From positions 1 to 35,369 of the forward strand of contig NZ_CAJAXH010000049.1 of NCBI RefSeq assembly GCF_903946935.1: a DNA stretch of 35,369 bases, given 5' to 3'. How positions within the stretch are numbered: position 1 is the first letter of the stretch; every line of letters starts with the position of its first letter. Positions 14,591 through 34,777 of this stretch are shown here, piece after piece. A model generated the notes under the pieces. That model was not told the DNA's origin. It made no database searches and saw nothing but the letters and a program-made list of their open reading frames with translations. Position numbers and translations under genes: made by a program. The stretch is from an uncultured Thiodictyon sp. (GTDB lineage Bacteria > Pseudomonadota > Gammaproteobacteria > Chromatiales > Chromatiaceae).

Positions 14591-15751
14591 TCATTCCTCG
14601 CTGGCCTTTCTCACCGCGGCCAGGAAGCCCCGGCAGTTTGCCACCAGGTCTGCCCCCTGTGCGTGCAGGTCCCCGCCAATCAGCAGACAACAGTCGCGTC
14701 CATAGAAGCGAATCAATTCAGGTACCCGCGCGATCCCCATCCCCCCTGCCGGCACGGGGAAGATGCTCGGAAAGCCGGCCATCGGCCCGGTGGCGGCGTC
14801 CACGATGTCACGGCACTCCGGCGCCGTGAAGGCGAAACGCCCGCCATAGCTCGGGAAGATCGTCGCGTCCGCGCCGGCCAGTCGGTTGAGTTGACCATAG
14901 AGCACACCGTGTGTCAGCCCCCCGTCGGGATGGAGTGTGAAGCTCCCCTGAAAGGCCGGGTGACTCAGGATCGGCAGTGCCAGTGCGTCGTCGTCCGCCA
15001 GGGCGCGCATTGCATCGAGCCCGGCCAGCCCAGGGCAGAACAGCAGCCCCCCGGCGTCGCAGTTCTGGGCCAGCCGGGCGCGCCGCCCGATCTCCGTCGC
15101 CGGGGCGGTGACATTGGGCAGATAGCGCGCGCGGCCGCCCGTCTCCCGATTGGCGCGCTCGACCGCCGCGGTGCAGCGCTGTACGCGCTCGTCGAAGGGA
15201 CAGAAGCGCTGGTCGGTCAGGCCATGGTCGTCCTTGATCAGGTCGATCCCGCCCAGGGCCAGTCGATAGGCCAGGTCCGCCAGTTCCCGCGGATTGAGCC
15301 CCATGGGCTTGATGGCAGTACACACGATTGGCCGGTCTTGAATCCCGAGCAGCGCCCGCAGCCCGGCCTGACCAAAGCGCGGCCCCCGGTAGAGTGCCCC
15401 CAGTGATTCGCCCAGGTCGAAACGCGTGAGGCGGATGCCCGGCTTGATGCTGATATTGCCAAACAGACAGTTGACGAGTTGGGTCAGTTCCCGCCCCGCG
15501 ACCTCCACCGGATAGCGGATCACCGCCTCCCAGCGGTCCGCCCCCAGTGGTTCGAGGGCCGCCACCTCACCGACGATCTGGTCGCGGATGGCGGCACTCG
15601 GGATCAGGTGATGCGGAAACTCCACCGTCTGTTCCAGACAGATGTCCAGCGCCCGCTGTTGTGCCTGCGTCGCCGTGTGGGTGCCGCCGAGTTGGTAGAC
15701 GGCGCTGAAGCGCTCACCGCTCAGGGTTAGGGGCTGGTCTTGGGCAGTCAT
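14591..15751 (-). CDS. RuBisCO-like protein (form IV)
   Basis: The 386-residue protein has the RuBisCO large-subunit fold: an N-terminal ferredoxin-like part and a barrel with CTAIKPMGLNP (K148 at the K175 position of true RuBisCO) and GGIDLIKDDHGL. In the latter, K173 would be the carbamylated Lys and D174/D175 metal ligands, but His176 replaces the usual Glu. The loop 6 Lys is absent (the matching stretch reads FPSYGGRF). It therefore cannot fix CO2. Relatives in form IV act as enolases or isomerases in methionine salvage and related pathways; KDDHGL fits the DeepYkr-like branch, tentatively. The start ATG at 15751 has GGGATGAG upstream; the longer open frame is not needed. It is divergent from an aldolase gene at 15927. 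Confidence 0.85.
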   Translation of the reverse strand: MTAQDQPLTLSGERFSAVYQLGGTHTATQAQQRALDICLEQTVEFPHHLIPSAAIRDQIVGEVAALEPLGADRWEAVIRYPVEVAGRELTQLVNCLFGNISIKPGIRLTRFDLGESLGALYRGPRFGQAGLRALLGIQDRPIVCTAIKPMGLNPRELADLAYRLALGGIDLIKDDHGLTDQRFCPFDERVQRCTAAVERANRETGGRARYLPNVTAPATEIGRRARLAQNCDAGGLLFCPGLAGLDAMRALADDDALALPILSHPAFQGSFTLHPDGGLTHGVLYGQLNRLAGADATIFPSYGGRFAFTAPECRDIVDAATGPMAGFPSIFPVPAGGMGIARVPELIRFYGRDCCLLIGGDLHAQGADLVANCRGFLAAVRKASEE

Positions 15752-15818
15752 CGGCTCATCCCGGAAAGGGTGCGAAGCCCGCAACTCTAAAGGAACCTGG
15801 GTGTCATGTCGCTTAGAA

Positions 15819-15850
15819 CAATCCGGCGGCGCTACTGCGCCGCCGGATTG
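15819..15850. repeat. Perfect 14-bp palindrome between divergent genes
   Basis: CAATCCGGCGGCGC (15819-15832) pairs fully with GCGCCGCCGGATTG (15837-15850) around the loop TACT. A further half-copy (GCCGCCGGATC) follows at about 15863. It lies between the divergent RuBisCO-like and aldolase genes, so it may be a shared operator, or a REP-type repeat. It lacks a T-run. Confidence 0.6.
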
Positions 15851-15926
15851 GATTTGCTGTAGCCGCCGGATCAAGGCAAAATGCTCTGTTCGGCTACTCC
15901 CCACCCCCCGTCGCCCGGAGACACCC

Positions 15927-16910
15927 ATGTCCGACAAGGCCCCCTGGATCACCTACCGTCCCGAACTCAAGGTGCTGGATTGCACCGTGCGCGATGGGGG
16001 GCTGGTCAACTCCCATCAGTTCAGCGATGAGTTTGTCCGCGCAGTCTATCGTGCATGCGTGGAGGCTGGGCTGGACTATATGGAGATCGGCTACAAGAAC
16101 TCGAAGAAGGTCTTCCCGACCGATAAGTTCGGCCCCTGGCGCCACTGCGCCGAGGAGGACCTGCGCCGGGTCGTCGGCGATCACACCGCGGCGGCCACCG
16201 GGCTCAAGCTCGCCGCCATGGCCGATGCCGGCAAGAGCGACTGGCAGCACGACATCGTCCCGGCTGCCGACAGCCCGCTCGACATGATCCGTGTCGCCTT
16301 CTATGCCCATCAGGTCTCAGAGGCGGTGGAGATGATCGGCCACTGCCATGCCTTGGGCTACGAGACCACGGCCAATCTGATGGCCGTCTCCAATATCACC
16401 GAGGAGGAGATCGACACGGTCCTGGAGGCGGTTGCCGCCACCCCGGCCAGCACCATGGTGATCGTGGACAGCTTCGGTTACCTGTATCGCGAGCAGATCG
16501 ATCGGCTCTACAAGAAATACGCGGCGGCGATGGCCGGCACCGGCAAGGAGGTCGGCATCCATGCCCACAACAACCTCCAACTCGCCTTCGCCAACACCAT
16601 TGAGGCGATTATCCTGGGCTGTAACCGGGTGGACTCGACCATCTTCGGCTTCGGTCGTGGGGCCGGTAATTGCCACACTGAACTCTTGCTCGGCTTCCTG
16701 CGCAACCCCAAGTTCAATGTGCGGCCCATCATCGAGGTGATCCAGCATCAGGTGGCGCCCCTGCGTAAGACCTTGATCTGGGGTCCGTCGGTCCCATTTA
16801 ATATTACCGGTCAGTTGAACCAGCACCCGCGCTCGGCCATCGAGTGGAGCGAGGGCCCCCACCGGGACGACTACCTTTCCTTCTACGACAAGGTCGTCTC
16901 GGAGATCTGA
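15927..16910 (+). CDS. DRE-TIM aldolase (4-hydroxy-2-oxovalerate aldolase-like)
   Basis: The 327-residue protein opens with VLDCTVRDGGLVN (residues 17-29), the D-x-T-x-R-D-G-G strand of DRE-TIM metallolyases in which Arg22 and Asp23 act on the enolate and metal. A later VGIHAHNNLQLA holds the His-x-His-Asn metal ligands, and ARCHI-like segments (FGFGRGAGNCHTE) close the barrel. HMG-CoA lyase, HOA aldolase and isopropylmalate synthase share this chemistry of Claisen or retro-aldol cleavage of 2-oxo or 2-hydroxy acids. The substrate is not settled. A C-terminal DmpG-type interaction domain is not obvious. The ATG at 15927 has GGAG upstream. Its stop overlaps the next start by one base, and it is divergent from the RuBisCO-like gene. 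Confidence 0.78.
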   Translation: MSDKAPWITYRPELKVLDCTVRDGGLVNSHQFSDEFVRAVYRACVEAGLDYMEIGYKNSKKVFPTDKFGPWRHCAEEDLRRVVGDHTAAATGLKLAAMADAGKSDWQHDIVPAADSPLDMIRVAFYAHQVSEAVEMIGHCHALGYETTANLMAVSNITEEEIDTVLEAVAATPASTMVIVDSFGYLYREQIDRLYKKYAAAMAGTGKEVGIHAHNNLQLAFANTIEAIILGCNRVDSTIFGFGRGAGNCHTELLLGFLRNPKFNVRPIIEVIQHQVAPLRKTLIWGPSVPFNITGQLNQHPRSAIEWSEGPHRDDYLSFYDKVVSEI

Positions 16911-25525: not shown

Positions 25526-26527
25526 ATGCTCTATTTGTTGGTTCTTCTACTGATCCTGGTCGCCGCGGCCTTGGCCTATCTCGCCAGCCAGCCGGCGGAG
25601 TTTCTCATCCGCCGCTCGCTCCTGATGAATACGGATGCCCGCACCGTCTTTGCCCGGGTCCGGGACCTGCGCGGTTGGTCGGACTGGAGTCCCTGGCTGC
25701 TGCACGATCCCGCGGCCCGATTGGAATACAGCCCGCACCCGGACCAGGAGGGCGGCTATTACAGTTGGGACGGCCAGGCGATCGGTGCCGGCCGACTCAC
25801 CCATGAGCGACTGATGGAGCCCACGCGGATCGACCAGCGCATCCGCTTCATCCGTCCATTCAAGACCGAAAACACCGTGTGGTGGGAGTTCGCCGCCGCC
25901 GCGGACGGCGCTACCGAGGTCACCTGGGCCATGCGTGGGCGCCTGCCTTTCCTATTGCGCTTTCTCACCGGGCTCATGACCCGGATGATGGAATACGACT
26001 TCGAGCTCGGTCTGGCACGGCTGCGCGGTCGCCTCGACCCCACCGCCGAGCGGCCCGAGATCCGCTTTTTGGGGCCAATCGACCATCCGGCGCAGACGGC
26101 GCTCACCATCCCCTACAGCGGCGACCTGGCCGGCCTGATCGCGACGATGGGCGATGGCCTCCCGCGCCTGGGCGCCCACTGCGCCGCGATCGGTGTCACG
26201 CCGCCGGGCCCCGCCTTCATGGCCTATTACAAGGTCAATGCCAAGGTCACTCGGTTGCGCTGCGACCTGGCGCTCCCGGTCCCGGAGGGCACCGACCCCG
26301 GCCCCTTTGCCCTCAAGCGCCTGGGCGGCGGGCGTTACTACGGCACCGAACTCCAGGGCAGCTACCAGTTTCTGGGGCCGGTCTGGAGCGCCGTCATGGC
26401 CCACCTGCGCATGGTCCGCGCCCGCCGGGATCGCTCCCGCCCGTCGCTGGAGCTCTATGTCAGAGACCCGAGCCAGACCAGCGACAGCAATGATTACCTG
26501 ACCCGTATCCTGGTGCCGATTCGCTGA
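25526..26527 (+). CDS. SRPBCC (START-like) plus GyrI-like effector-binding domain protein
   Basis: The 333-residue protein has an N-terminal membrane anchor (residues 2-20, LYLLVLLLILVAAALAYL), a START-like ligand pocket (about 35-170) with the DLRGWSDWSPW opening and GATEVTWAMRGRLPF strand typical of polyketide-cyclase/dehydrase-type SRPBCC proteins, and a C-terminal GyrI/AraC effector-binding-type domain (about 175-330) with FMAYYKV and VPEGTDPGPF. Such two-domain proteins bind small hydrophobic ligands; no function is known. It is probably bound to the inner membrane. It lies on the plus strand 75 bases ahead of the phosphoesterase gene. Confidence 0.75.
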   Translation: MLYLLVLLLILVAAALAYLASQPAEFLIRRSLLMNTDARTVFARVRDLRGWSDWSPWLLHDPAARLEYSPHPDQEGGYYSWDGQAIGAGRLTHERLMEPTRIDQRIRFIRPFKTENTVWWEFAAAADGATEVTWAMRGRLPFLLRFLTGLMTRMMEYDFELGLARLRGRLDPTAERPEIRFLGPIDHPAQTALTIPYSGDLAGLIATMGDGLPRLGAHCAAIGVTPPGPAFMAYYKVNAKVTRLRCDLALPVPEGTDPGPFALKRLGGGRYYGTELQGSYQFLGPVWSAVMAHLRMVRARRDRSRPSLELYVRDPSQTSDSNDYLTRILVPIR

Positions 26528-26602
26528 CGTTGCCTGCCCGGCAGCGAACGCGGTTTGTGCTATTCTTGCGCCGCCTGTTGTCTTCACACCATGGGGGTTA
26601 AG

Positions 26603-28087
26603 ATGAGCGAGTTTCCTGACTACGACGAAATCCATGTGATCTCGGACATTCACATGGGTGGCAAGCCCGGCTTCCAGATCCTGCGTCAGACGGGGCGCTT
26701 GGCCAATTTCATCGGCTGGGTCGGGGCACGCCGGCCCACCGAGCGGGTCGCGCTCATTCTCAACGGCGACATCATCGACACCTTGGCCGAAGACACCAAT
26801 GGCTACATTGCGGTGGACAACGCGCTGCCGATCTTGGATCGCATCATGGGCGACAGCGCCTTCGCGCCGGTGTGGGATGCGCTCGCCGCATTCGTCAAGC
26901 GGGAGGGTCGGCGCCTCGTGTTCGCGATCGGTAATCATGACATTGAGATCGCCTTCCCGAACGTGCAATGGCGGCTATTGGAGCGACTGTGCGGCGATGA
27001 TGCCCGCGCCCGGGCGCGGGTGGAGTTTTCCACCGCTGGCGCCGGCTATGCCTGTACGGTCGGTCATGCACGGGTGTTTTGCACCCACGGCAATGAGGTG
27101 GACGCCTGGAACTTCAACCGCTATGAGGAGTTGTCGAAAGCGGCCCGGCGTATCAACAGCGCCCGCGGCCTGCCCCTCGACGAATGGACGGCGAACGCCG
27201 GTACCCGCATGGTCAAGGACGTGATGAACGAGGTCAAGAAGCGGTACGCCTGGATCGACCTGCTCAAGCCGGAAAACTCCGCCGCCATCGGTACCCTGCT
27301 TGCCCTCGACCCCTCGCAACTCGGTAAGCTCAGCAAGCTTCCGGCCATCGTCGGCCGCCAGGCGGTCGACGCGACGCAAGTGGACCAGCGCCTCTCGGCC
27401 GAGGGTCTGCACGCCCCCGCGCCCACGGCTGCCGTGCCGTCGCTGGAGTCCTTGCTGGGGCCGAACGTGCTCGAGAGTATGCAGTCGGTCGGCGCCCGGC
27501 CCGGTCGCACCGGGGACGAAATGCTCGCCGCCTTGGAGCTGGACAGCACCGACCGGCCGGTCAATACCTTCGGCGACGCGCCCTTGGGTGCCGGCCAATT
27601 GGTCTGGGATCGGCTCACCGGCTGGCTGACCGGTGTCAGCCCCGATGAGGCCTTGCGGCGGGCCTTGCAGGACTGGCTCAAGAACGACACGACGTTCGAC
27701 CTCGCTGCGGCGGACGCAACCTATGCCGAGACCGTCAAGAAACTGGGCTCGGCAGTCAATTTCGTCGTCACCGGCCATACGCATCTGGAGCGCGCCATCG
27801 ACATGGGCGCGGGACGTTTCTACTTCAATTGCGGGACCTGGATCCGCTTGGTCCGCTTTACCGAGGCGATGCTGGCCGGCAGCGCGGTGTTCAAGCCAAT
27901 TTACGACGTGCTCAAGACCGGTAGCATGGCGGCGCTCGACGACGCCCACTTCAATGGCCAATCCCTGGTGCTGGATCGGACCAGCGCGGTGTCGATCAGC
28001 CTCGAAAATGGGCACGCCGTCGGTCGACTCACTCATGTCATCGGCGACGGCAGCGGCCAGCCGGAGATCGTCAAGCAATTTTCGTGA
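26603..28087 (+). CDS. Calcineurin-like metallophosphoesterase with a large insert
   Basis: The 494-residue protein carries all five motifs of the metallophosphoesterase fold: D15-I-H17 (SDIHMGG), G55-D56 (LNGDIID), G110-N-H112-D113, H162 (CTHGNEVD) and G391-H392-T-H394. These bind two metal ions and hydrolyse phosphomono- or diesters. About 200 residues (roughly 180-380) separate the fourth and fifth motifs, much more than usual; this insert is helical and includes KLSKLPAIVGRQAVD and RRALQDWLKND. There is no signal peptide, so it should act in the cytoplasm. The ATG at 26603 follows GGGGGT. A further in-frame ATG is 12 bases upstream. The CHAT protease starts 8 bases after the stop, so the two are likely one functional unit. 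Confidence 0.85.
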   Translation: MSEFPDYDEIHVISDIHMGGKPGFQILRQTGRLANFIGWVGARRPTERVALILNGDIIDTLAEDTNGYIAVDNALPILDRIMGDSAFAPVWDALAAFVKREGRRLVFAIGNHDIEIAFPNVQWRLLERLCGDDARARARVEFSTAGAGYACTVGHARVFCTHGNEVDAWNFNRYEELSKAARRINSARGLPLDEWTANAGTRMVKDVMNEVKKRYAWIDLLKPENSAAIGTLLALDPSQLGKLSKLPAIVGRQAVDATQVDQRLSAEGLHAPAPTAAVPSLESLLGPNVLESMQSVGARPGRTGDEMLAALELDSTDRPVNTFGDAPLGAGQLVWDRLTGWLTGVSPDEALRRALQDWLKNDTTFDLAAADATYAETVKKLGSAVNFVVTGHTHLERAIDMGAGRFYFNCGTWIRLVRFTEAMLAGSAVFKPIYDVLKTGSMAALDDAHFNGQSLVLDRTSAVSISLENGHAVGRLTHVIGDGSGQPEIVKQFS

Positions 28088-28095
28088 GGCCCACG

Positions 28096-30096
28096 ATGAG
28101 TGCAATCCTTGAGGTCAGACTCGAACTGGTCCGGTCCGGTCCGTCGCATAATCAACTGCTCTCGCCGCTCACGCCCTACATCGCCTTGTGCGGCGGCGAT
28201 AGTCCGGTCACACTGCATCTGCCGTTTGAGCACCAGCAATTGCTGATGCGCCTGCAACGGCTGCGCTACGAGCAGTCCGGCGCGGACATTGAGGTGCAAA
28301 CGGCACAGCGGCAGGTGGAATTGCAGGACCTGGGCCGGCGGCTCGGCGATTTGCTCGGCGAGATACCGACCTTGCTCGCTGAGTTGAGCCGCGCGCGGTC
28401 TCAAGGGCGGCGGCTGGTGCATCTGCGCCTGTCGCTGTCGGCGAGCGAACTGGGCATGGTGCCGTTCGAGACGGCGGTGTCGCCGGCTGGTTTCCCCGGC
28501 ACCGGTTCGCCCTTGTTCCTGCAATCGAATACGCCGGTCGCGATCACCCGCGAAGTCCGCCGCGGCCGGATGCTGCCGTTGGACTGGAACCGCAAGCCAC
28601 AGATTCTGTTGGCGTTCGCCTCGCCGCCGGGGCTTCCGCAGGTGCCGGCCGATGCGCACCTGAGGGCCCTGCGCGACGCGATAAACCCCTGGCTGAAGGT
28701 CAAGGGCGATCCGACCCAACGCCTCGTCGAAACCAAGAAACACCTTGCCGTATTGCCCGATGCGAGCCTGCAGGATATCCGCGCCGCCTGCGCCAAGCGG
28801 CAATACACCCATGTGCATATCCTGGCCCACGGCGCGCCGATGCCCTTCGCCGGCGACAAGCGCTTCGGTATTGTGCTGTGTCGTCAGGAGGATCGCACGC
28901 AACCGGATTGCGTCGATGGCGAAAGTCTGGCGCTGGCGCTGACGGGTAAAGACGCCACCGGTACGACGGGGGAGGGCCCGACCCTGGTGTCCCTGTCCAC
29001 CTGCGACTCCGGAAATATCAACTCGGTGCTGACGCCTGGCGGCAGCATCGCCCATGAACTGCATGCGGCGGGCGTGCCATGGGTCATCGCGTCGCAGTTC
29101 CCGTTGTGGATGAGGGCCTCGTCCATCGTCACCAGCGAATTGTTTAAGTCGCTGCTGGATGGTGAGGACCCCCGGTGGGTACTCTATGGTCTGCGTCAGA
29201 AATTGCGCACCGACTGCCCGAGCACGCATGACTGGGCCAGTATCGTCGCCTACGCGACCCTGCCGGCCGACTTCGAGCAGCAGGTCGCGGCCTTCCGCGA
29301 GCGGCAGATGCGCGGCAAGGTGGATGTCATCATGGACCGTCTGGACGATCGGACGCTGTTTAGCCGCAAGGTGGAGGCCGGTCGCAACGATGCCGAGAGT
29401 CTGAGCCGGCTCGACCTTAACTTTGAGGACGTTCTCAGTCATTGGTTCGGCGCGGCGTCGTGCGATGACGGCGACCGGCTGGGCGCCGCGGCCGCCGTGC
29501 GGTTGAGCCTGACTGCGGCCTGGAAAAAGCGATTGGGGATTGCCTACTCGGTCCTTGAAGCGGCGTCGGAGACGAACGAACGCCGCGCGTTGGACTTCTA
29601 CCGCCAAAGCCGTGACCTGTACCGCCGCGCCTTTGAAACCGAGCCGACCTTGCTCTGGCGGGCCGTCCAATTCCTGTCGCTCAATGCGCTGCCGGTGCTC
29701 CGGGACGACAATGCCCGTGCGCCATTTGGGATCGACGCCAGAGAATGGTGGTCGATCGCGATCCGCCTGGTCGAAGTGCAACGACAGTCGTTGGAGGGGG
29801 CGCTCCGCACCTTCGCGCTGACTGACTTGGTTGAGTTGAATCTGCTCGGGAGCCATTATGCACCTAAGCGTAATCGCAGCGAGGCCAAGCGGCAAGTCGA
29901 CGATTGTCTGGAAGACATTTTAAATTTCCAGCAGGTGGACCGCACCCCCGCGAATGCACTGGCCTATCAATTGTCGCGTTACCGGTGCTTCTGGAAAGAT
30001 TCGGAATGGGACAAGCTCGTGGAGTATGCGCTCCAGACCTTGCGCCCGGGGTTCAGCTTGGCAGACGCTCAGGACGACAACGAAAATAAAGACTAA
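28096..30096 (+). CDS. CHAT-domain (caspase-like) protease with helical C-terminal half
   Basis: The 666-residue protein has a CHAT peptidase domain at about 100-400. The catalytic His is H245 in HVHILAHGAP and the catalytic Cys is C303 in LVSLSTCDSGN, both in canonical surroundings. The C-terminal 250 residues are helical (SRDLYRRAFETEPTLLW, VEVQRQSLEGAL), TPR-like, and resemble the MAP3K-TRAF-binding-type segment found in other CHAT proteins. CHAT proteases serve as effectors in type III-E CRISPR (TPR-CHAT), gasdermin systems and other defence modules. The start at 28096 has GAGG upstream and follows the phosphoesterase stop by 8 bases. A GTG 12 bases upstream overlaps that stop. The N-terminal 100 residues include a coiled stretch (IEVQTAQRQVELQDLG). 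Confidence 0.85.
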   Translation: MSAILEVRLELVRSGPSHNQLLSPLTPYIALCGGDSPVTLHLPFEHQQLLMRLQRLRYEQSGADIEVQTAQRQVELQDLGRRLGDLLGEIPTLLAELSRARSQGRRLVHLRLSLSASELGMVPFETAVSPAGFPGTGSPLFLQSNTPVAITREVRRGRMLPLDWNRKPQILLAFASPPGLPQVPADAHLRALRDAINPWLKVKGDPTQRLVETKKHLAVLPDASLQDIRAACAKRQYTHVHILAHGAPMPFAGDKRFGIVLCRQEDRTQPDCVDGESLALALTGKDATGTTGEGPTLVSLSTCDSGNINSVLTPGGSIAHELHAAGVPWVIASQFPLWMRASSIVTSELFKSLLDGEDPRWVLYGLRQKLRTDCPSTHDWASIVAYATLPADFEQQVAAFRERQMRGKVDVIMDRLDDRTLFSRKVEAGRNDAESLSRLDLNFEDVLSHWFGAASCDDGDRLGAAAAVRLSLTAAWKKRLGIAYSVLEAASETNERRALDFYRQSRDLYRRAFETEPTLLWRAVQFLSLNALPVLRDDNARAPFGIDAREWWSIAIRLVEVQRQSLEGALRTFALTDLVELNLLGSHYAPKRNRSEAKRQVDDCLEDILNFQQVDRTPANALAYQLSRYRCFWKDSEWDKLVEYALQTLRPGFSLADAQDDNENKD

Positions 30097-30218: not shown

Positions 30219-31118
30219 CTAGCGTAACGCGTGGAAACGATCGATGGCGCTCTGGAGCTCCTCGCTCGTCATGAACGCCCGGCGGCCATAGTGCGCCGTC
30301 AGACCGAAACGGCTCAACTTGTCTTGCCACAGTGGATTGTAAGGCAGGAGTTCAGCGCTCATGATTGCGTGCTCACGTAGGAACCGGGCGAGTCCTTTCA
30401 GGTTTTCATCGGTGTCGGTGATGCCGGGAATCAAGGGGATACGGACGATCACCGGGATGGTCGCGGCCTGGATCAGTTGCAGTAGATTCGTCAGTATGGC
30501 ACGGCTGCCGATCCCGATATAGCGTCGGCTGGCCGCATCGTCGATCAGCTTGAGGTCGAAATAGACGAGATCCAGCCAGGGCAGCAGCAGGCGCCGAAAT
30601 CGCGGGAAATTGAAAACGCCATTCGTTTCGATGGCGGTCGGGATGTCGGCCGCCCTGAGTCTCTGGAAGAACTCGTGGAGGAAGGGCATCTGCATCGTGC
30701 ATTCGCCGCCGGAGGCCGTGACGCCGCCGCCGCTGGAGCGGAAGAACGGCTTATCGATGGCGAGACGATAATAGAGCTCGTCCACGCTGTACCATTGACC
30801 GATCAGTTCCAGTGCCCGCTCGGGGCAGGCCGCCACGCAGTCGCCACAATAGGTGCAGCGTGAACGGTCCAGTCGCAGCAAGCCGTCGCTCAGGCGGAAG
30901 ACCCCGGCCGGGCAGAGCGCCATGCAGTGCCGGCCGCACCGATCCGGCCGGCACGACTCAATGGCCACGGACAGGGTTGGTGTCCGGGATAGTCCCTCGG
31001 GATTCTGGCACCAGGCGCAGGCCAACCGGCAACCCTTGAAAAAGATCGTGGTACGGATGCCAGGCCCATCCTCGCTGGCATCGCGTTTGATATCGAAGAT
31101 GAATGCCTTGGGAGCCAC
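30219..31118 (-). CDS. Glycyl-radical enzyme activating protein (radical SAM)
   Basis: The 299-residue protein has the activase architecture. The radical-SAM cluster motif is C30-RLA-C34-AW-C37, preceded by the DGPGIRT that begins the family. Two further 4Fe-4S sites follow: C56, C61, C65, C69 and C88, C91, C94, C98, both ferredoxin-like. The GGGVTASGGE segment binds SAM. It would abstract a hydrogen from the active-site Gly of the enzyme encoded two genes upstream (31796-34777), using SAM and flavodoxin. The GTG start (31118) lies 15 bases from the preceding stop. The first cluster has C-x4-C spacing, slightly wider than usual. Activity should be confined to anoxic conditions. Confidence 0.92.
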   Translation of the reverse strand: MAPKAFIFDIKRDASEDGPGIRTTIFFKGCRLACAWCQNPEGLSRTPTLSVAIESCRPDRCGRHCMALCPAGVFRLSDGLLRLDRSRCTYCGDCVAACPERALELIGQWYSVDELYYRLAIDKPFFRSSGGGVTASGGECTMQMPFLHEFFQRLRAADIPTAIETNGVFNFPRFRRLLLPWLDLVYFDLKLIDDAASRRYIGIGSRAILTNLLQLIQAATIPVIVRIPLIPGITDTDENLKGLARFLREHAIMSAELLPYNPLWQDKLSRFGLTAHYGRRAFMTSEELQSAIDRFHALR

Positions 31119-31133
31119 CTTCGATGGTCGGTC

Positions 31134-31790
31134 TCAGGCGGCCTTGGCCGGCAGCGGTAAGGACAGCTGAATATCGGTGGCGATGGCCCCGAGCTTAAAC
31201 AGATGTCCCATGTTGCCGGTGACCTGAAGCAGATTCTGGACCAGTAAGCTCGCGACATCGGCAGTCGGATTCTGCAACAGCCCAAGGATCGACGCGATAT
31301 CCTTGAAGCGGATGATCAAATCGACCTTCCCGGGGTCTTTCTCCAGCGCGTTGGCCGCGGTTTCACTGAGTTCCCGGGTGACGACCACCGCCAGGGGATT
31401 GAGCGTCTCGCCGAAGACCGAATGCACATAGAGCTTTTTCGGGTCGGGGCAGAATTCCATCATGACGTTCATATTCTCCCCCGGCTTTTTGGAGCGAATC
31501 ATGAACTTGCCCTGATAATAGCGATGTCCGCCGGGGGCGTGCGGGTCCGTGATCACGAAATTGTCCTCGAAAAATGCCTTGGCCTTCTTCGCGTGGGCCG
31601 GATCCAAGGGATTCTCGGACAGTAAAAAACCGAAGCCCAGGCGCAGCAGCAGGGCCATGCCCTGGGCCAGCAACGGTCCGCCGGAATGCGCGAGTAAAGC
31701 GGGCAACTGCGCCTGGCCCACGGCGGTGCCGGCACCCAATTTCAGGGTATCTTGCAGACTCGGCAGGAAGCAAGGAATGATGGGATGCAT
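31134..31790 (-). CDS. SCP2-like lipid-binding accessory protein of a glycyl-radical operon
   Basis: The 218-residue protein sits between the glycyl radical enzyme and its activase, with gaps of 5 and 15 bases, so it should act with them. The C-terminal half (about 100-210) has the strand/helix pattern of the sterol-carrier SCP2 fold, with VDLIIRFKDIASILGLL and NMGHLFKLGAIATDIQLS, which form a hydrophobic tunnel for acyl or sterol ligands in characterised members. A hydrophobic stretch (MALLLRLGFGFLL, residues 45-57) precedes it; it may be a membrane-touching helix. No known glycyl-radical accessory matches. I infer that it binds a hydrophobic substrate or product. Confidence 0.6.
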   Translation of the reverse strand: MHPIIPCFLPSLQDTLKLGAGTAVGQAQLPALLAHSGGPLLAQGMALLLRLGFGFLLSENPLDPAHAKKAKAFFEDNFVITDPHAPGGHRYYQGKFMIRSKKPGENMNVMMEFCPDPKKLYVHSVFGETLNPLAVVVTRELSETAANALEKDPGKVDLIIRFKDIASILGLLQNPTADVASLLVQNLLQVTGNMGHLFKLGAIATDIQLSLPLPAKAA

Positions 31791-31795
31791 GCTGA

Positions 31796-34777
31796 TTACC
31801 CCATTGAGATAGCGGTCACTGGGTGTTGTTCTTGGCCGGTCGCCAATCCGAAGTTGGCCCGCCGGATGATCTCGGTACGCATCTGCGGACTGAGCGTCAC
31901 GAAATAGGCGGAATAGCCGGCGACCCGTATCATCAGGTCGCGGAAGGGTGCCAGGGATTGTTTCTCGACAGTTCCCGCACCCGGCCGACTCGCGGCCGTG
32001 GCGGCCCGGTCCGCGTCCTCCAGGTCGGAGATGGAAGACACGCACATCTGCACCAGTACCCCGTTTTCATCCGTGAAGGTCTTCATGTAGCGGGCAAACA
32101 GTTCGGTATCTTTCTCGAAGTGGGCTGGGTCGCTGGTCGTCAAACTCAGGTTGTAGGTATAACCGTTCTGCACGGTTTGGGGATTGACCGAGGTGACCGA
32201 CAGCATATGGTCGAGTAGGTTGACCGGGTCCCCGTTGCGCTTCACGATCCCCGGGCAGGGTGTAATGCCGCTGGCAAAGGGCTCGCCGCTGCGCCGCCCG
32301 TTGGGCGTGGCCTTGGTCAACATGCCGAAGCCGGCGTGATTGGTCATGCTCCAATAGCCAGGCAGATAGCGCCCACCGCGATGGGTGCGATAGCGGGCAA
32401 AGACCTCTTGTATCGTTTCGGTCAACCAGTGGGTGTGCTTGATCGCCACCGAATTGTCATACAGGCCGCCGGCCGTCCGATCGATGCCGGCACCGTATTT
32501 CGGTGCCAGGCGGATCAGTTCCCGGATCTCGCTCAGGCGTTTGCTGCCGAGGGTGGGCAGGCGGTCCGGCGTGTGTCCGGGATGCAGCCACTCGGTCACT
32601 TCGTCAAGCACACGCGTCGCCAGGCCCTTTTCCTCCTGAGGTTGGGTGCCGAAATTCGCGGCCATGGCCGCGAGCAATTCCGCCCTAGTGACCTTTCCGG
32701 AAAAGACCAGGGTCTCGAGGACGCAAAAGGAATCGATCACGTCGGCCAGGCCGATGACCGCGATACCGGCCGAGTTATACTTGGCCCCGCCGGCCGCCAC
32801 GTCGCGGAACACCGCCCCGCTGCCGTCAGGGGTATTGGCCGGGCCAGTGAACAGGCCGGAGAGCAAGGGCGAGGCCCGATCGATCTCAAAGGCGCGGCCC
32901 AGGTAATTGTTGCATTGCACGATGTGCTGGACCATGGCATCCAGTTGGAACCGGAAGGCATCAATGAACTCTGCCATCGAGGTCATCGCGGTTAGCGGTT
33001 GCGTCGTATAGTCGGTGGTGCCGTGGAACAGGTTTGGCGACTGGGGGTCGATGCCGTCGCTGCGGTGTTTACCCCCGTACAAAGCGAGTTCCAGGACCGC
33101 CGGCAGCACCATCAGCGTGGAGCCGGTATGGCCATAGTGTTTGTAGGCGGCGTTTTCTTCGATGCAGCCGATGGAGGCATAGTCATAGGCATCGGCCAGT
33201 GCCTCATCCTCGCTGATCCCCTCATGGGCGGCATAGTAACTCGCCATGGCGGGCACGACCGCCGCGTCGCCATGCAGGGCCGGCGTGGCCCGGGTGCGGA
33301 TATTGACCTGGCAGATACGCTTCAGATAGGGGTCCATGACCTGCGGGGGTAACGGATTGCCGTCGGCGTCGCGATGATGCACGTCGCGGTGATAGCGGGC
33401 GTGGACATTGGGGTCGCGGATGGCGAGGAGTTCCGTGGCCTTGAGGATGATATAGGTCATGTCATTGACCGCGTCCACCACCGTGCCATTCACAAAACGG
33501 CAGCCGCCCAGGGTCAGCGCCTGATTGGAGCCGCTGCCCGCGAATAACGCCTCGGAGGCGGCCGGTGACACCGGCACATGGTCGGAGCAGCGCAGGAAGA
33601 AATGGCATACCAGTTCCACCGCCCGCCGGGTATAGTGGTCGCGGGCGGCGGTTGAATCCAGTCGCTCCCAATCCTTCAGATAGAAGGGGTTCAGAATTTG
33701 GTCGAGGCGTCCGATGGAAAGGCCGAAATTGGTGTTTTCCTGGAGCAGCAGGTGATAGCAAATCCAGATGCAGACCAATGCCTCGTGCAGTGTCTCTGCG
33801 GGTTGCGCGGGTACCTTTTGGCAAATCGACGCGAGCGTGGTATTGCCGGCCGCCTGCGCGGCCTCGGCCAGGTGAGCCGCATAGCGCTTGGCGCCTTCAA
33901 ACACCGCGATCATCCCGTGCAGGAATTCTATCTGCTGCGGTGTACTCGCCAGGCCTTGGGCCAGGTCCCGATTGGCCCGGGCGATCAACCCATCGAGCCC
34001 GAATTGCAGCACCCGCGGGAAGTCGGGCACCGTGTGCGAGACGCTGATCGATTTGTCGGGCAGGTAAAAGGAGACCCGCTCGAACAACTCATGGGCCTTT
34101 GGGGTTTCGCCCGCCTTTTTCTTCAACGGCGGATCGCTGGACGGCGGGAAATTGCCGCCGGTGACGCGGTCCCGATTCTCATAATCGGCCGTGTCATAGT
34201 CGCTGTAGCGGGCCAACTCCATTGCCGGCTTGTGTTCCAGCCAGAACGGGAAGATTTCGCGATTCAGCCGATCGGCGACCGCGGGGTCGATCCGGAACGG
34301 ATTCTGCGCCCGGGTGGCGACCGTCTTCAATTCCGGCCAGATGCTGTAGCCGCCGGTATCGACATAAATCGGCACCCCGACGAAACTCTTGGTGGTGTGA
34401 CCGGGCAGCAGGTCCTGGGCGTCGACCAATGGCGTCTTATGCTCAAACACGTGCTTGAGCGCCTGGGCGCGGCGTGTATAAGGAGGGAGCTTCAGGTTCT
34501 CGGGAACGCGCAAGAACTCGGTCAACAGGGTCGGTAGCTCGCCGCAGATCACCGGGATGCCTTCCGCTTTGAAGAGCAGGTCGCGCCGCTGCTTGACGAC
34601 GGGGAATTGCTCCAGGGTAATGGTCCCCAGCGCCAAATCGGTCAGCGTCTTGACCTTGCCGAAATCCTCATTGGGGATGGGAAAGGACGTGACTGTACCC
34701 TGAACCCTGGGCGGCACCGAACCCGTATCGAGTCCCACCCTGATACCGCCGCCGGACAAAGGATTGGTAACGGACAT
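31796..34777 (-). CDS. Glycyl radical enzyme, unusual pyruvate formate-lyase-family member
   Basis: The 993-residue protein is longer than typical PFL-like enzymes (about 790-850). It has the conserved SIGRLDQILNPFY and NQALTLGG of the family, the thiyl loop SIGC538-I-E540-E541-N, and the glycyl loop RVAGYSAYF with Gly954. Dehydratases and lyases such as glycerol dehydratase and choline TMA-lyase have GC-x-E-P; here Pro is Glu541. The general base E540 is kept, so a C-O, C-N or related cleavage is possible, but the substrate is unknown. An extra polar segment lies at about 200-230 (including PPLKKKAGETPK). Downstream on the minus strand come an SCP2-like protein and the activase. The start ATG at 34777 follows AGGAG. 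It works without oxygen; no microcompartment shell gene is near. Confidence 0.9.
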   Translation of the reverse strand: MSVTNPLSGGGIRVGLDTGSVPPRVQGTVTSFPIPNEDFGKVKTLTDLALGTITLEQFPVVKQRRDLLFKAEGIPVICGELPTLLTEFLRVPENLKLPPYTRRAQALKHVFEHKTPLVDAQDLLPGHTTKSFVGVPIYVDTGGYSIWPELKTVATRAQNPFRIDPAVADRLNREIFPFWLEHKPAMELARYSDYDTADYENRDRVTGGNFPPSSDPPLKKKAGETPKAHELFERVSFYLPDKSISVSHTVPDFPRVLQFGLDGLIARANRDLAQGLASTPQQIEFLHGMIAVFEGAKRYAAHLAEAAQAAGNTTLASICQKVPAQPAETLHEALVCIWICYHLLLQENTNFGLSIGRLDQILNPFYLKDWERLDSTAARDHYTRRAVELVCHFFLRCSDHVPVSPAASEALFAGSGSNQALTLGGCRFVNGTVVDAVNDMTYIILKATELLAIRDPNVHARYHRDVHHRDADGNPLPPQVMDPYLKRICQVNIRTRATPALHGDAAVVPAMASYYAAHEGISEDEALADAYDYASIGCIEENAAYKHYGHTGSTLMVLPAVLELALYGGKHRSDGIDPQSPNLFHGTTDYTTQPLTAMTSMAEFIDAFRFQLDAMVQHIVQCNNYLGRAFEIDRASPLLSGLFTGPANTPDGSGAVFRDVAAGGAKYNSAGIAVIGLADVIDSFCVLETLVFSGKVTRAELLAAMAANFGTQPQEEKGLATRVLDEVTEWLHPGHTPDRLPTLGSKRLSEIRELIRLAPKYGAGIDRTAGGLYDNSVAIKHTHWLTETIQEVFARYRTHRGGRYLPGYWSMTNHAGFGMLTKATPNGRRSGEPFASGITPCPGIVKRNGDPVNLLDHMLSVTSVNPQTVQNGYTYNLSLTTSDPAHFEKDTELFARYMKTFTDENGVLVQMCVSSISDLEDADRAATAASRPGAGTVEKQSLAPFRDLMIRVAGYSAYFVTLSPQMRTEIIRRANFGLATGQEQHPVTAISMG

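Follow-up and report, generated by a model that had tools for sequence, protein, structure and literature searches.

Why should the gene of a glycyl radical enzyme (GRE) have as its neighbour one for a protein folded like a lipid carrier? The question is raised by three genes on the minus strand of contig NZ_CAJAXH010000049.1 from an uncultured Thiodictyon sp. (assembly GCF_903946935.1); the window that we analysed is this entire contig of 35,369 bases. A GRE gene, a gene for a protein of the SCP2 (sterol carrier) fold and a gene for a radical S-adenosylmethionine (SAM) activase follow one another there. A sequence-only reading had described them as a three-gene glycyl radical operon at 30219-34777, and the genes were found at these places with all frames open. 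We show that SCP2 and GRE are coupled, in an operon or by fusion, across distantly related microbes. The function that we propose from sequence, with a confidence just short of evenly balanced, is that of a radical eliminase to which the SCP2 protein would feed an amphiphilic lipid, both substrate and reaction being deduced.

Coupling of the glycyl radical enzyme and the SCP2-fold protein

Named genomes were scanned for GREs with two motifs and a four-sequence alignment, and the best 80 of the 95 stretches encoding a relative gave 74 distinct loci, which represent the nearest relatives of the window GRE and not all GREs. These split into 56 loci at 53-74% identity and 18 distant loci at 29-34%; the 56, a locus of genome G355 (L015) and the window make up the 58 clade loci. 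Clade loci outnumber genomes (L064 and L069 come from one assembly, as do L065 and L071), and the duplicates L014 (= L022) and L016 (= L050) were excluded. Metagenome-assembled genomes (MAGs), whose names may be wrong, account for all 18 distant records and for 47 of the 56 closer ones. The closer loci include 13 from Nitrosomonas, eight from Methylococcales (five Methylomonas, Crenothrix, Methylobacter and one unnamed), four from Nitrospirota, three Gallionella-type, three from Chromatiaceae and three anammox-type (Scalindua, Brocadiaceae and Anammoxibacter).

An SCP2 gene was present in 51 of the 58 clade loci, the misses being six loci cut by a contig end and L069 with its split gene, and the activase was present in 50. 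Among the 18 distant loci SCP2 was a separate gene in seven (L074, L078, L079, L080, L085, L086 and L087) and was fused to the N terminus of the GRE in ten (12 GREs); only L083, where the GRE is cut at its start, had none (17 of 18 with SCP2). A profile made from the clade SCP2 proteins only matched the separate genes of the distant loci at E-values from 2.2e-8 to 1e-4 and fused domains at 6.8e-6 to 0.053, and gave no match in L081, L088 and L090. An iterated profile also had the distant stretches in its training set, so its E-values there are not independent. When 38 further GRE loci were compared with this iterated profile (one batch of further GREs being 30 of those listed), 11 matched, namely ten repeat views of loci already counted and the fused GRE L110; the other 27 (CutC, HypD, HpsG, PflD, YbiW, PflB and unlabelled) had no SCP2 match at E <= 10, mostly within about 1.5 kb of flank. 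Far from being absent from all related operons, an SCP2 partner, as a gene or a fused domain, thus accompanied the surveyed relatives wherever the place was covered, one split gene excepted.

Two more genes recur in these loci. A protein of about 813 amino acids (P813) is encoded in 38 of the 58 clade loci, including 25 of the 32 with enough flank, and also at L078; a DUF6765 protein is encoded in 28 of the 58 (26 of the 44 with enough flank) and also at L079, L080, L085, L086 and L087. On a Nitrosomonas MAG chromosome (CP091134.1) the GRE is broken into two pieces (L064 and L069) some 0.24 Mb from each other; P813 accompanies its first part, and SCP2, the activase and DUF6765 accompany its second. 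At L084 (5756-15724), from a Desulfobacterium MAG, three SCP2-fused GREs were seen, the first and second of them flanking a single activase.

The SCP2-fold protein

The middle gene (31134..31790, minus strand) encodes 218 amino acids from the ATG at 31790, which lies 5 nt after the GRE stop; its own stop lies 15 nt before the activase start. The longer open frame, of 303 amino acids, overlaps into the GRE. Searches with this protein gave nothing in Pfam (its SCP2 model PF02036 included) or NCBIfam at E <= 0.001, nor among PDB sequences at E <= 1. Its AlphaFold model, made from an alignment of 37 sequences (mean predicted local distance difference test score 84.9), was compared with the PDB by Foldseek. 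Rows 1-43 consisted of 30 SCP2/lipid-transfer entries and 13 alkylsulfatase-type entries, which we take to carry an SCP2-like domain, and row 44 was unrelated. The top match was UbiJ (E 8e-4; TM-score 0.60 by target and 0.35 by query), the sole row at E <= 0.001, a consequence of the window protein greatly exceeding an SCP2 domain in length. From the secondary structure of the model and an alignment with the domains of distant relatives, the SCP2 domain would cover about residues 80-210 (approximately 31161..31553, minus strand), and the model has an additional N-terminal helical part outside the carrier domain.

Homologous stretches were scanned with PF02036 as well. That of L085 passed the cut-off (22.0 versus 21.3), the sole pass among the related stretches scanned; four relatives (L079, L080 and the fused L077 and L073) scored below it, and the other four, L074, L082 and L084 among them, did not match. 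Three sterol carrier/lipid-transfer entries led the PDB matches of a profile of the fused domains, at a weak E of about 0.03, and a profile that included the window protein had no PDB sequence match at E <= 10. Aligned profile to profile with hhalign, the window family and the fused domains matched over 52 columns (E 2.4e-6, probability 88.9). The predicted fold bears out the earlier description of the partner as SCP2-like, which sequence searches of Pfam, NCBIfam and the PDB did not support for the window protein itself: according to its model the second protein is of the SCP2 fold, and it may bind lipid.

A separate branch of glycyl radical enzymes

The GRE (31796..34777, minus strand) has AGGAG 8 bases 5' of its ATG, and the window holds 592 bases of sequence upstream of it. 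It belongs to the PFL-like superfamily, with a PF02901 score of 325.7 bits (cut-off 24.3; E 8.7e-97). The Gly_radical model PF01228 stays marginally below its cut-off (22.0 versus 22.2); the loop RVAGYSAY with Gly954, the expected glycyl radical site (codon 31916..31918, minus strand), is nonetheless intact. Cys538, the expected thiyl residue (codon 33164..33166, minus strand), sits in GCIEENAAY with Glu540 two codons further. The length of 993 residues, the loop at Gly954 and Cys538 in GCIEE can be read directly in the sequence, as had been stated before.

For the tree we used 92 rows (52 clade, 20 distant SCP2-type and 20 reference) and a quick method with support from the Shimodaira-Hasegawa-like approximate likelihood ratio test (SH-aLRT) only; L128 is identical to L089, L110 was left out, and eight rows have long branches, some of which may join falsely. 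The references were labelled PflB, PflD, YbiW, CutC, HypD and HpsG, with no labelled Bss, Ass, Isl, HPAD or IAD rows. All 52 clade rows share one branch (SH-aLRT 100), and together with the 20 distant SCP2-type rows they form one side of a branch, again with SH-aLRT 100, apart from the labelled references. Nine NCBIfam GRE models matched the window GRE, all far under their cut-offs: the PFL2-3 subfamily model TIGR01774 reached 319.5 bits where 678.2 are required, and eight enzyme models (HpsG, CutC, PflD-type, HpfG, HypD, IAD, HPAD and PFL) gave 18.6-185.3 bits versus 994.2-1150, the CutC, HypD, HpsG, HpfG, IAD and HPAD equivalog models among them standing at 71.6-185.3 versus 1000-1150. The best PDB matches were PFL2 (1.7e-57) and glycerol dehydratase (8.9e-48), and Isl matched at 1.7e-27; matches to hydrocarbon-named GREs (8iof 3.9e-31, MasD 1.7e-16 and TutD 5.5e-13) were weaker than PFL2. 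The enzyme accordingly falls in a GRE cluster of its own, as the sequence-only reading had anticipated. We know of no SCP2 protein that serves a glycyl radical enzyme, and no SCP2-linked GRE was reported in the titles and abstract openings of the openly accessible literature, subscription journals being mostly outside that search. We regard these enzymes as a GRE branch not described before, whose partner is likewise of a new type.

The closest relative of the window GRE is from Methylomonas (74% identity), and the window GRE clusters with five Methylomonas rows (six rows, SH-aLRT 100), away from the Chromatiaceae rows. Among eight genomes of the window's genus a close full-length GRE was found only in its own, five others having partial matches of 26-28%. 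This grouping and the single copy in the genus point to lateral transfer. The SCP2 protein was found in three of 369 genomes of the window's class, its own genome included.

Active-site residues

Cys538 and Glu540 are kept in 52 of 52 clade rows and in all 20 distant SCP2-type rows. His248, the column of which we take to be that of His164, an active-site histidine of glycerol dehydratase, is kept in 51 of 52 clade rows (the remaining one has X) and in 18 of 20 distant rows. The Gly954 column has G in all 49 clade rows that reach it and a gap in three. Position 541 varies: 41 of the 52 clade rows have Q there, ten have E and one has H, and the 20 reference rows have P in 10 only, with T in HypD and I in HpsG. 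The GCIEE motif had been called atypical and read as a sign of a new reaction; given this variation it is not distinctive, does not support a new reaction, and was rejected as a signature. The window GRE lacks a Cys-Cys pair (Gly537-Cys538; C at 537 occurs only in two PflB-type rows), which makes PFL chemistry unlikely.

Proposed function and alternatives

We propose the following course of reaction. From knowledge of the enzyme family, the activase would use SAM and an iron-sulphur (Fe-S) cluster to set a radical on Gly954, and the radical would transfer to Cys538. The SCP2 protein would hold the fatty part of an amphiphile and present it to the GRE. Cys538 may then abstract a hydrogen at the polar end of the substrate, Glu540 and His248 helping, in the manner of GRE eliminases, to expel a leaving group (water or some other) and so to give a lipid aldehyde or ketone. 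Other enzymes might oxidise this product onward, a step suggested by the aldehyde ferredoxin oxidoreductase genes near three distant members (L075, L088 and L089, out of 15 distant loci with neighbours listed).

Because an SCP2 partner is found wherever its place was covered, a hydrophobic substrate delivered by SCP2 is probable, and on this point the sequence-only suggestion of a hydrophobic substrate stands. The near invariance of Cys538, Glu540 and His248 suits radical abstraction with acid-base assisted elimination; we give elimination chemistry even odds. AMP-binding (acyl-CoA-ligase-type) enzymes lie near L082 and L089, a palmitoyl-thioesterase-like protein lies near the operon in five Methylomonas loci, and a small hydrophobic protein stands beside it in seven loci (L042, L045, L053, L054, L062, L078 and L080). 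The constant SCP2, these hydrophobic or acyl-handling neighbours and the aldehyde ferredoxin oxidoreductases together suggest that a lipid is turned into an aldehyde or ketone. Our favoured guess for the substrate is one with a glycerol-type head group, such as monoglyceride, alkylglycerol or phosphatidylglycerol, itself a doubtful one. Tentatively, and with clearly less than even confidence, these GREs may represent an undescribed branch that performs radical chemistry on membrane lipids, with the carrier domain fused or supplied by a partner gene, by which the hosts would remodel or ferment lipids without oxygen. These hosts may be anaerobes (Asgard archaea included), ammonia oxidisers, methanotrophs, Nitrospira, iron oxidisers and anammox bacteria.

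Several observations weigh against a lipid eliminase. Phe351, Gly352 and Gly552 occupy the columns of His281, Ser282 and Asp447 of glycerol dehydratase (PDB 1r8w alignment), presumably its diol-binding residues; as the glycerol-binding residues other than the His164 column are not kept, the substrate would differ from glycerol. The glutamate of GCxE occurs also in some decarboxylases. An insertion relative to glycerol dehydratase (about residues 710-746, 32540..32650 on the minus strand; residues 709 to 746 are unaligned to 1r8w), of at least 30 residues in 47 of 52 clade rows, was considered as an amphipathic membrane helix and rejected. Its best 14-residue amphipathic stretch ranks 12th of 981 in the window protein (median rank 19 over the 47 rows), and random stretches of equal length equal it in 13.6% (median 21.8% across the 47 rows, 5% or less in two of them). 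The oxidising neighbours were seen near distant members only, among the chosen neighbours that were scanned. P813 matched eight of 14 genomes searched, that of the window (G000) not among them, and was not found in five other genomes with the core operon (L045, L053, L054, L062 and L070); DUF6765 (PF20551) matched six of 369 genomes of the class, again not that of the window. The core is therefore three genes. G085 was alone among the six class genomes with DUF6765 in having the SCP2 protein too, so DUF6765 is not an exclusive partner and has other contexts. SCP2, finally, could be a purely structural subunit. The failed helix control slightly lowered our confidence in the delivered hydrophobic substrate, in the eliminase proposal as a whole and in the undescribed lipid-acting branch, and slightly raised that in a structural role of SCP2.

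The alternative that survives best is unlikely: an SCP2-fed GRE whose target is the hydrocarbon chain rather than the polar head group, the reaction being decarboxylation, isomerisation, desaturation or C-C bond making. The Phe and Gly in place of the presumed diol-binding residues, the acyl-CoA-ligase-type neighbours and the hydrocarbon-named GREs among the PDB matches agree with it. However, the enzyme retains Glu540 and His248 in the manner of eliminases, PFL2 and glycerol dehydratase are the better PDB matches, and the operon shows no small Fe-S subunit like those of Bss or HPAD.

Next comes the likewise unlikely reading that SCP2 serves in structure or assembly and that the GRE acts on an ordinary small molecule. 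Conservation by itself is no proof of ligand binding, and the extra helical part of the window protein and the failed test of the insertion fit such a role, whereas Foldseek mostly matched lipid or sterol carriers and the small hydrophobic protein stands beside the operon in seven loci. It is improbable that the substrate is a polyprenyl (quinone-type) precursor, SCP2 acting like UbiJ in ubiquinone synthesis. UbiJ is the top Foldseek match and quinones are common to the host groups, but they differ between these groups, and both the GRE and the SCP2 protein are patchy in the window's genus and class; the earlier suggestion of a prenyl substrate stays open, solely by analogy with UbiJ. Very improbable is a modification of hopanoids, which we rejected as the general substrate, and a sterol-like substrate in general, as suggested before, is not supported either: squalene-hopene cyclase was found in eight of 16 genomes (those of L017, L026, L033, L053 and L062 included) but not in the other eight, among them G019, G085 and the window's genome (99.96% complete), for which hopanoids are contradicted. 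That the operon belongs to an already characterised GRE type is hardly credible, since beyond the general PFL-like match all model scores fall far short and the tree, with no labelled Bss, Isl, HPAD or IAD rows, places it on a separate branch.

Known GREs mostly act on small soluble molecules or hydrocarbons, and one that always goes with a lipid-carrier fold would carry radical enzymology over to lipids. Nitrosomonas, Methylomonas and Nitrospira have been studied as oxygen-using bacteria, in which an oxygen-sensitive enzyme type is unexpected. The function could be tested in culture, as nine of the 56 closer records are not MAGs and some of these belong to named strains (Methylomonas methanica, Nitrosomonas oligotropha and Nitrosomonas aestuarii).

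Activase and neighbouring genes

The activase (30219..31118, minus strand; 299 amino acids) is a radical SAM protein with ferredoxin-like Cys clusters and contains CX3CX2C. It matches TIGR02494 at 253.3 bits (cut-off 174.35), as well as PF04055 and PF00037. The activases of L003 and L016 have 249 amino acids and lack the ferredoxin-like clusters of the window activase; many Nitrosomonas activases are likewise short.

P813 is internally repetitive (27% identity; E 5.6e-12, calculated with no correction for composition). Pfam and NCBIfam gave nothing for it at E <= 0.1, one sequence had no PDB match, and the profile had one PDB match at E 0.37. The P813 copy of L015 (G355:C1:2461841-2464297) has an in-frame TGA. 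DUF6765 has an invariant H-x3-D-x3-H, a lead that it may be a zinc-phospholipase/S1-nuclease-type protein. Foldseek gave nothing for it at E <= 0.001, the weak rows being four S1 nucleases and one bacterial phospholipase C (E 2.8-7.9, TM-score by query 0.16-0.18), and a PDB profile search gave no match. The small hydrophobic protein, absent from the window operon, has about 200-260 amino acids by open frame, with four to five helices in six copies and two in that of L042 by hydropathy count; the two copies scanned matched no Pfam model.

Convergent with the GRE operon, genes for a Polyketide_cyc2/GyrI-type protein, a metallophosphoesterase and a CHAT-domain protein lie consecutively at 25526-30096 on the plus strand. 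They were rejected as members of the system, as the other loci searched yielded no homologue at E <= 1e-3; the metallophosphoesterase has a weak pairwise match (23%, E 4e-6) to a phosphoesterase near L078. Part of the CHAT protein matches the SAVED_CHAT defence model (E 2.9e-14). A RuBisCO large-chain-like protein of 453 amino acids is encoded at 14594-15952 on the minus strand, near an HMGL-like gene on the opposite strand.

Comparison with known systems

The PFL2/glycerol dehydratase-type GREs (TIGR01774; 2f3o and 1r8w) likewise have the PFL-like domain, the GCxE cysteine, the histidine of the His164 column, the glycyl loop and a TIGR02494 activase. In comparison to them, the window GRE is about 200 amino acids longer and lacks the other presumed diol-binding residues, and it and its relatives have an SCP2 partner gene or a fused SCP2 domain. 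CutC, HypD, HpsG, YbiW, PflD and PflB share the superfamily and the radical logic with the window GRE but stand on separate branches of the tree; a YbiW is 25.9% identical to it, and a CutC 26.1%. The second protein resembles UbiJ, other SCP2 proteins and alkylsulfatases such as SdsA1 in fold, whereas its sequence match to the SCP2 family is too weak for Pfam. SdsA1, in which an SCP2-like domain serves an enzyme acting on alkyl chains, provides a precedent.

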